NCBI RefSeq assembly: GCF_000002425.4
Contig: NC_037273.1
Coordinates: 7,023,506-7,087,505 of the forward strand
Direction: 5' to 3'
DNA from: Physcomitrium patens
Taxonomy: Eukaryota; Streptophyta; Bryopsida; Funariales; Funariaceae
DNA length: 64,000 nt
The notes beneath the pieces were generated by a model. That model was not told the DNA's origin and did not search any database. It worked only from the letters and a program-made list of their open reading frames with translations. The stretch's first letter is position 1. Every line of letters starts with the position of its first letter. Of the stretch, positions 37,113-40,221 are shown piece after piece. The position numbers and the translations under genes were made by a program.

Positions 37113-40100
37113 TTACCGAGGCTCAAGACAACTGACAACACCACTATTGTTAGTGCTACAGGCTGAAACTTCACCGTGAGAGTTGTTAGATCGAACCGTG
37201 GACCCTGAGATCTGTTTGTCGCTCTTCGTCCCTGAGAATTTGAAGTCTAAGTCGCTGTAATTGCGCACATCATACCTCGCAAACTTGGGAATGATCAGTT
37301 CGCTCCCTCCCGCCAGCATCGACACCACGGCTGTCATGCTGGGCCGTAGTGTAGCGCGTGAGTGCGTACACAGGAGAGCCATCTCTACGACTCGGAGTGC
37401 TTCCTCCCTGTCGTCTTCGGACCAAGTGACTGCGCCGTCTAGAAGATCGATCAGGTTCTCCTCCTCGTACAATTCCCATGCCTGCACCAACAACACATCA
37501 GTCCTCGATCGTGAATGCTCAAAGCAATGGTGTCCATCCCAGACTACGTCCCAGCAGGACTAAACTCAAAAACTATCAGCTTGGAGATGTTTGCATTTGA
37601 GGGACTCATTAGCTTGAGGACATCACATACCCAGTCGAGTAAGTACGTGGCATGTGATGCAACGTGGAGGTCAAGGTTAGGACGGCCACTGATGAGCTCT
37701 AGTACGACCACACCATAACTGAACACATCTGCTTTCTCTGTTAACTGTCCTCGCATCGCATACTCCGGCGCTAGATATCCCCTGAGAATCCCATCAGATG
37801 CCATCTCTGCTATCAGCCACTTCACAAATGTATTTCTATCTCTAAAACTGATTGGGTCCGGAAGAAAACATCGTCAAATAATTCCTGAGTGAATGTTGAT
37901 TGTTGAAAGGCTCCATTCCGCTACTTAACTATGATTGAGAATAGGTCCACATTTTGCACACTGACTGGATTCTGGATAGGTGAAACTTACGCCGTGCCAG
38001 CAACACGAGTGCTGACGTGGGTGTCATTCTCTGAGAAGATGCGAGCCAGCCCGAAGTCTGCAATCTTGGGGTTCAGGTCTCTGTCCAAGAGAATGTTGCT
38101 CGCTTTGATGTCACGGTGCACAATTCGAGTGTGGCATCCCTCGTGCAAGTACGCAAGTCCACGCGCCATGCCATCAATAATTTTCATCCTGGTCTGCCAA
38201 TCCATCTGCATTCGTGGTTTATCTGGAGTATAAACGTGTATAGCGGTGAGGTATGAGGTCTTCATATGCGCAAGTCAGGTCTCCAGGATCGAGTGAGAAT
38301 TTGCCGAAGACTATCTTTGACGCGAGCCATACAGTTCATCTAGCTCTTCCACAACAGAAGAATATTTGACATCTACGAGACGGACAGCTGTTGGGCATTC
38401 GCTTGGACTGGTAAAAGAAAACTTGACGATATCACGCACCGAACATGGCTTGGTGAAGGCTCTTGTTTTCCAAGTACTCGTATACAAGAAGCCGCTCCTT
38501 GCCTTTGAGACAGCATCCCCTTAGCTTCACGAGATTTCTATGTTGGACGCTAGTGATGAGAGTCACTTCGTTCAGAAACTCATCGTTTCCTTGCTGAGAC
38601 TTCGCTGAGAGCTGCTTGACCGCCACCTCCACACCATCTGGAAGCACTCCCTGGTGTCATCAACAACGAATTTAGGGAGTGTACATGTTGAAGCAAGGAG
38701 TCAAAGAAAACAACATGATCAACTTCGAAAAATAAAAGATGGGGATCATGTGCAGAATCGGTGAGATTATGGTTGCGATTCTGTCAGAAGGAAACACAGA
38801 AGTGTGTAGAGTCCAGGCGGGATGGTGAAGATTTCGATCACCCTAAAGACCGAGCCGAATCCGCCTTCTCCAAGCTTGCTTTCCGAGTTGAAGTCGTTGG
38901 TGGCATGCTTAAGAATACTGTAAGGGAAGATTGTGGGCTTTCCTTCGATACTTCGGATTTCTGCGCATGCAGTATAATAATCAGTGCACTTTCAAGAACA
39001 GACTAGGCAGGGCCCATCAGATTAAGATGAAGAGTGGTATGGCGAGCGAGGAATCGTTATTACCATTGCATTGCTGGGCGTAATCTACTTTCTCGTAATA
39101 ATTGCGGAAGATTCTCTTTCTGCAGCACAGCAGACCGCAACATACAACAATCAAAAGCACAAGGCCAATAGAAATGCCTGCCACAATCGCCTTGTAGTTC
39201 CTCTTAACTCCTGCAATACGGCCAGCACAAAAAATGCCATGCATAACAAGCAGGCTGTTGTCAATGATATGACTACGTGCCACGCATAATCTTGATTAAT
39301 ATGGTTTAGACTTTAAAGCTTGCGTGAGACTAACATGATGAGAGGCAAAGAAACAGTTCAGTGTCTCCTTGTCCCACGTCTATGACCAAAGTATCGGTAA
39401 CATTCGTGAATGCGTCAAAATGATTTCAAGAATGCGAATTTGATGCAAGCCGACAGTCTGATTGTACACTTACGAGCGGAAACTTTGACGAAGTGTGCAG
39501 GGCAACGGGTGCAGAAATCATCGGTGATATTACACAGCAGAGGTCGCGCTCTCGCAGCTGCAGGGCTTTGAAATCTTGAAAAGAATGTGACCTTGCAAAA
39601 GCAGGCCGGTTCTTCGCTCCACACTTGACGAACACTGTCACAACATTCCGCAGACGGAATGGACACGTCACCACTCATGTATGATGAACATGATCCAAGG
39701 TCTGCATATGCAGTCGTATTATTACATGCATCTTGTTCAGGAAGCTTGTACTGTGTGGCGATGCTAGCGGCGCATTCCAAATCCGGTGGGCCCCCAAAAT
39801 GCTGTGGACAGTCGTGGCATAAGTCTCCCTTGATACCACATACCAAAGGACGTGCCCGCGCTCGAGCAGGTCCGGGAGGTGCAAACTTGGACTGGAAAGT
39901 GACTTTACAAAAGCATGCTGGCAATTCAGACCACACACTCTGAACGCTTACGCAACAATTGGCAGACGGAGTAAACACATTTCCATTCATGTATTCCGAA
40001 CATGCACCGAGTTTCGCATAAGCATCCGTGCCGCTGCATGGGTCTATCTCCTTTGGCTTGAGCTTAGCGATGCCTGTGCTGCAATTATATCCTGACGAGA

Positions 40101-40221
40101 CAGGGACCGGACTTGGAGCCGGACTCACAGACCCACTTTGTGCATCGACCGCGAGTAGCAATGGCAATAATGTCAGTATCACATTCCAAGTCCCCATTTT
40201 CTTTTTCAGAAACGATGCCAC
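37113..40221 (-). CDS. Receptor-like kinase with two LTP-like cysteine ectodomains
   Basis: Seven exons on the minus strand: 40221-39474, 39210-39064, 38960-38842, 38650-38440, 38222-37991, 37781-37631 and 37481-37113. All introns are GT-AG (103-263 bp) and phases match, giving 658 residues. A signal peptide (1 to about 28) is followed by two cysteine repeats. Repeat 1 (62-138) has C-x11-C-x14-CC-x12-CFC-x22-C-x6-C-x2-C. Repeat 2 (166-240) has the same with x20. The CC-x12-CxC core is that of lipid-transfer-protein-like 8-cysteine domains. The membrane segment is about 257-279. The kinase has GEGGFGSV (329-336), K350, HRD (444-446), DFG (464-466) and GYLAPEYAM. All catalytic residues are present, so it should be an active Ser/Thr kinase of the DUF26/LRR-VIII-like RLK group. 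The ligand is unknown. Confidence 0.88.
39474..40221 (-). other. Exon 1: signal peptide and duplicated cysteine ectodomain
   Basis: This exon encodes the entire ectodomain. The two repeats share cysteine spacing and motifs ([25 protein letters not shown]) and therefore arose by internal duplication. The donor gtaagt follows codon 249 in phase 1. An open frame runs on into the intron to 39415, but it lacks the membrane segment, so splicing to 39210 is preferred. Confidence 0.85.

Follow-up and report, generated by a model that had tools for sequence, protein, structure and literature searches.

A Physcomitrium patens receptor-like kinase gene with a tandem lipid-transfer-protein-like ectodomain

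Results and discussion

The window (the whole 64,000-nucleotide stretch of Physcomitrium patens DNA analysed here) contains, on its minus strand at 40197..37113, a gene whose seven exons splice into a 650-residue receptor kinase with a lipid-transfer-protein (LTP)-like ectodomain; the existence of this architecture is confirmed. A preliminary description of the region had proposed just such a seven-exon receptor kinase with a duplicated LTP-like ectodomain, and in-frame splicing, two repeats that are 56% identical and a match to Pfam LTP_2 (E 2.8e-13) all bear this out, so that the interpretation as an LTP-like receptor kinase is supported. The gene model is well supported and has a paralogous family behind it; the receptor architecture that it describes is uncharacterised. 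On balance, we lean slightly towards the view that the gene specifies a single-pass receptor-like kinase (RLK) whose tandem ten-cysteine LTP ectodomain senses lipids, and that it belongs to a small family made up of RLKs and kinase-less relatives. The architecture of the gene model, the LTP membership assigned by profile HMM, the intact kinase motifs, the paralogous family and the constraint on paralogues can be read from the sequence; the class of ligand, the partnership with other receptors and the signalling output are inferred.

Gene model

The reading frame is maintained across all joins of the seven exons, every intron having a GT donor and an AG acceptor, and the spliced model reads, in order, signal peptide (recognized by eye), ectodomain, transmembrane (TM) helix and kinase. 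Its features are as follows.

39474..40197, minus strand: exon 1, from the ATG at 40197 to a GTAAGT donor; signal peptide at about residues 1-19 (by eye) and the entire ectodomain; LTP_2 E 2.8e-13
39790..40098, minus strand: LTP-like repeat 1, recognized by cysteine spacing; ten cysteines, residues 39-130; LTP_2 29.7 bits alone
39475..39789, minus strand: LTP-like repeat 2; ten cysteines, residues 142-232; LTP_2 33.0 bits alone; 56% identity with repeat 1; AlphaFold model
39064..39210, minus strand: exon 2, set by its splice sites; TM helix (best 19-residue mean hydropathy 2.88) and basic juxtamembrane stretch
38842..38960, minus strand: exon 3, start of the kinase domain; glycine loop GEGGFGSV
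38440..38650, minus strand: exon 4, kinase; AVK lysine
37991..38222, minus strand: exon 5, kinase; HRDIKASN and DFG
37631..37781, minus strand: exon 6, kinase; APE
37113..37481, minus strand: exon 7, last part of the kinase domain, followed by the C-terminal tail and the stop; Pfam Pkinase E 6.5e-48 over residues 315-553

The span first given for the ectodomain, 39474..40221, is right at its 39474 end, but 40221 lies 24 bases upstream of the ATG. Could two genes have been run together, a secreted tandem-LTP gene and an unrelated kinase gene beside it? Read unspliced through its donor, the exon 1 frame stays open until a stop at 39415, as this reading would have it. However, the phase-1 join of exons 1 and 2 across a 263-base intron places the TM helix at the expected position, and the same order of LTP exon, TM stretch and kinase exons recurs at two loci on other contigs (L032 on C20 and L033 on C23); we regard a run-together pair as very improbable. 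Because the read-through is open as far as 39415, the single gene that we prefer might also yield a kinase-less product.

The catalytic motifs of the kinase (GEGGFGSV, AVK, HRDIKASN, DFG and APE) are all intact, and its closest sequence matches in the PDB are BAK1 and SymRK. The protein has the features by which plant RLK/Pelle members are recognized, namely a signal peptide (again by eye), a single TM helix and a kinase with the catalytic Lys, HRD, DFG and APE. Searching the genome with this kinase gave more than 150 matches. The kinases of L032 and L033 share 73% identity with it over 237 columns. Four comparison kinases (L047-L050), chosen among the matches listed because parts of the query matched them at high identity, share 53-56% over 177-234 columns; the comparison leaves aside further loci with 55-57% identity (on C5 and C6), as well as the unsplit kinases with the best scores (42-50%). 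In a tree of these seven kinases the three LTP-RLKs group together with support of 80/91, which does not in itself prove a single origin. L047-L050 are RLKs with a kinase related to that of the window gene, but their ectodomains differ, being LRR or VWA/Cache-like. The LRR ectodomain is assigned by Pfam in L049 and by eye in L050. The VWA/Cache-like ectodomains are those of the RLKs L047 (C27), assigned by eye, and L048 (C1), with a VWA match of E 0.0048, below the cut-off.

The ectodomain

Each repeat of the ectodomain has ten cysteines, spaced C39-x14-C54-x11-C66-x14-CC-x12-CxC-x22-C-x6-C-x2-C in repeat 1 and C142-x15-C158-x11-C170-x14-CC-x12-CxC-x20-C-x6-C-x2-C in repeat 2, with Phe as the middle residue of CxC in both. 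The spacing in the preliminary description was correct for the nine cysteines that it listed, but the first cysteine of each repeat had been left out. A search pattern composed after the family had been seen, and giving the spacings as ranges, was found in full in none of 200,000 shuffles of the 241-residue ectodomain stretch, and its core from CC to the end in two of 200,000; among 8,914 six-frame segments of the window the full pattern occurs twice, both times in this protein. The cysteine pattern is beyond chance. All 20 cysteines are kept although the repeats are only 56% identical. Between the repeats dN is 0.392 and synonymous sites are saturated; the duplication is therefore not recent, and amino-acid change has been held back.

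The HMMER comparison that had been suggested, against PF14368 and PF00234, placed the 241-residue stretch in both families (LTP_2, E 2.8e-13; Tryp_alpha_amyl, E 6.9e-11). Taken alone, each repeat exceeds the LTP_2 cut-off of 22 bits; with PF00234, repeat 2 is above the cut-off of 21.7 bits and repeat 1, at 21.4 bits, just below it. A phmmer search of the same stretch against PDB sequences returned only five unrelated matches, with E of at least 1.1, and an NCBIfam search gave no match. The SPARK domain, which we take to be the ectodomain of RKF3/ARK1-type RLKs, was also considered as an identity for the stretch and was rejected, since no such Pfam match appeared up to E 10.

The core of nsLTP/LTPG-type eight-cysteine domains originally recognized in the repeats is thus present, by the LTP_2 match and the CC-x12-CxC spacing, but each domain has two more cysteines than a standard nsLTP or LTPG. 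By profile the repeats are nsLTP/LTP_2 members; by count, with ten cysteines apiece, they depart from the exactly eight of that family. Eight of the ten can be matched to cysteines of LTPG-type domains, the first of the eight being shifted in the alignment by one column or a few. Nor is this an LTPG (type G) protein in the sense of a GPI-anchored one, a TM helix and a kinase being found instead of the anchor.

Structure prediction had been proposed as a further check. The AlphaFold model of repeat 2, made from a two-row alignment, is helical with a mean pLDDT of 70.9 in the best of five models (the others having 67.8, 37.8, 34.6 and 30.4, so that three of the five are below 40). Foldseek ranked two plant nsLTPs highest for this model, one from maize and Act c 10 (which we take to be an nsLTP), with probabilities of 0.90 and 0.91 and weak E-values of 0.18 and 0.20; the remaining 15 of the 17 matches had probabilities of 0.11 or less and include Pun g 1, presumably also an nsLTP. 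The repeat 2 model supports an LTP fold, short of proof. By contrast, the single-sequence model of the whole ectodomain had a pLDDT of 34.3 and was unusable.

Related loci in the genome

Searching the P. patens genome (470,438,890 bases in 101 contigs) with the ectodomain at E up to 10 gave 20 matches, corresponding to the window gene and 18 other places, one of them matched twice. About 7 kb was taken around each of the 18, which fall into three sets.

Kinase exons adjoin the LTP exon in four of the 18 places. Two of these, L032 and L033, look intact: the LTP exon is open, as are the joined kinase exons, and the catalytic motifs are kept. Of the candidate joins listed for their kinase exons, those agreeing with the window gene were adopted, one in L032 being placed manually and using a GC donor; where the LTP exon meets the TM stretch the join is ambiguous in both, and the C-terminal end of L033 is not fixed. 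The other two, L031 and L034, lie about 0.2 Mb apart on C22, and both have stops or frame breaks. L031-L034 each carry one LTP domain or part of one, so that among the five LTP-plus-kinase loci found the doubled domain is peculiar to the window gene. Tandem LTP domains also exist apart from kinases, in L030 among others. It is of note that a single open frame of 446 codons at G000:C6:440950-442023 has three consecutive LTP_2 matches.

A second set of seven places (L029, L035-L039 and L041) has an LTP domain, a TM helix and a short tail, with no kinase match in the stretch read. Their LTP domain is of the ten-cysteine type, as in the window gene, and they too have just one TM helix; they differ from it in their short cytoplasmic tail and in that no kinase was found nearby. 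In L041 (C16) a stop in the LTP exon cuts the domain short. The splice joins tried in L029 and L035-L039 are plausible, not unique, and are weak in L029, L035 and L039. Five of these loci, L036 (C12), L037 (C25), L038 (C6), L039 (C5) and L041, have tails ending in PPGGAF, and a genome search with the L038 tail at E up to 1 returned exactly these five.

The remaining seven (L030, L040 and L042-L046) resemble secreted or GPI-type LTPs. They share the LTP_2 domain and the CC-x12-CxC spacing with the window gene. What sets them apart is a count of eight cysteines (L043, with nine, being the one exception) and the lack of kinase exons in the stretch read.

Are the LTP-plus-kinase genes functional, or is the window gene a decaying, functionless chimera in which an LTP exon, captured upstream of a kinase, is drifting? 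The stops and frame breaks of L031 and L034 and the stop in the L041 LTP exon are what decay would leave, and two damaged copies among five LTP-plus-kinase loci count against the reading that we favour. Drift, however, does not sit easily with joined kinase exons that are open, and catalytic motifs that are kept, in the window gene, L032 and L033, nor with the retention of all 20 cysteines in repeats as diverged as those of the window gene. Substitution rates argue in the same direction. Between L032 and L033 (Nei-Gojobori) the kinase has dN 0.086 and dS 0.647 over 307 codons (dN/dS about 0.13) and the LTP domain dN 0.271 and dS 1.395 over 107 codons (dN/dS about 0.19, a rough value because dS is high, at 1.4); these paralogues are, as far as their sequences indicate, under constraint. 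For the window gene itself the kinase pair with L033 is saturated, as is the repeat 1/repeat 2 pair, and the other pairs have dS of 1.9 to 3.8. We consider decay improbable.

All ten of the receptor-type domains compared (the two window repeats and those of L029, L032, L033 and L035-L039) have ten cysteines. The CC-x12-CxC spacing of the window repeats is that of all eight LTPG/secreted-type domains compared. In a tree of the LTP domains (17 rows, with five of the eight LTPG/secreted-type domains included, L041 omitted and two rows less than half filled) a split supported at 99/97 separates the rows of the receptor type from those of the LTPG type.

Within the receptor type, L029 (C19:12694500-12701500) groups with the window repeats and the L031 and L034 pieces (87/93). 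Its LTP exon is 57% identical to the repeat 1 region of the window gene and is followed by a TM stretch and a short tail, with no kinase match within about 4.9 kb. The grouping of L029 with the window repeats could reflect loss of a kinase from L029, a possible kinase-loss relative, or the gain of a kinase in the window lineage.

Possible function

Lipid sensing would be the likeliest function of the window gene. An nsLTP surrounds its lipid-binding cavity with helices and four disulfides. The LTP domains of the window gene, helical and locked by disulfides, could act as a sensor that binds a hydrophobic ligand, perhaps of apoplastic or cuticular origin; alternatively, the lipid might be handed over by secreted or GPI-anchored LTPs (LTPGs). 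Judging from the alignment, the two extra cysteines would pair in a fifth disulfide that ties the N-terminus of each domain to its C-terminal part. Once a ligand is bound, the protein may pair differently with partner receptors, for which the kinase-less LTP proteins are candidates, and the altered pairing would switch on the RD-type kinase.

The strongest rival to lipid sensing is that the repeats are a disulfide-rich scaffold for a peptide, a polysaccharide or a protein partner, no lipid being sensed. LTP-fold domains can function without lipid binding, as in seed storage proteins and inhibitors, and this counts against the lipid-sensing explanation. The ten-cysteine domains have moreover diverged from the LTPG type, both in their two extra cysteines and in the tree, and the loop that follows CxC, up to the next cysteine, ranges from 20 to 24 residues while CC-x12-CxC and C-x6-C-x2-C are invariant. 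Set against this, the match to the LTP profile and the hydrophobic middle residue of CxC are both retained, and we judge a mere scaffold to be possible though rather unlikely.

Lipid sensing, if it is the function, could extend beyond one gene. With considerable doubt, we suggest that mosses have a hitherto undescribed receptor system in two parts, both based on ten-cysteine LTP domains: the LTP-RLKs, of which one has a tandem sensor, and kinase-less receptor-like proteins whose cytoplasmic PPGGAF tail is conserved. Together they would sense surface lipids of the cuticle or apoplast. The kinase-less relatives with their shared tail offer a testable pairing with the LTP-RLKs, and targeted gene removal is routine in Physcomitrium. 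To our knowledge, little is understood of the way in which plants perceive their own cuticle or the lipids of the apoplast, and an RLK with an LTP-domain ectodomain is a direct candidate for this role.

Precedents in the literature

The preliminary description knew of no characterised plant receptor kinase class of this kind. That holds for the literature searched, in which a phrase search for LTP-RLK-type names matched a single paper and turned up no characterisation of the class. The class had nevertheless been counted: among 40,418 RLK sequences retrieved from 80 plant species, five are listed as 'Probable-lipid-transfer-RLK' (Silva et al. 2022, PMC9603095). As the name is used there, an LTP-type ectodomain and an RLK kinase are found in one protein, as they are in our spliced model; in the parts of that paper available to us the class is only counted, with no tandem repeat, ten-cysteine pattern or family described. 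The class may include these very genes. As it has already been counted once in print, the tandem ten-cysteine receptor is a variant of a known, little-studied kind. The same source describes probable lipid transfer-RLPs of Arabidopsis as yet to be characterized (PMC9603095). For LTP domains in bryophytes more generally, G and G/D types are reported in xylogen-like AGPs, and plasma-membrane localisation is cited for moss G-type LTPs (PMC12209756).

Other features of the window

Frames on the minus strand at 61884-63680 resemble exons of an LRR receptor-like kinase; the only one of them run against Pfam (62817-63680) matched Pkinase (E 4.4e-10), with LRR_1 just below the cut-off. On the plus strand, an open frame of 522 codons at 15849-17417 matches a 2OG-Fe(II) oxygenase (E 1.3e-7), and another at 18290-18706 has a CP12 domain (E 9e-17).
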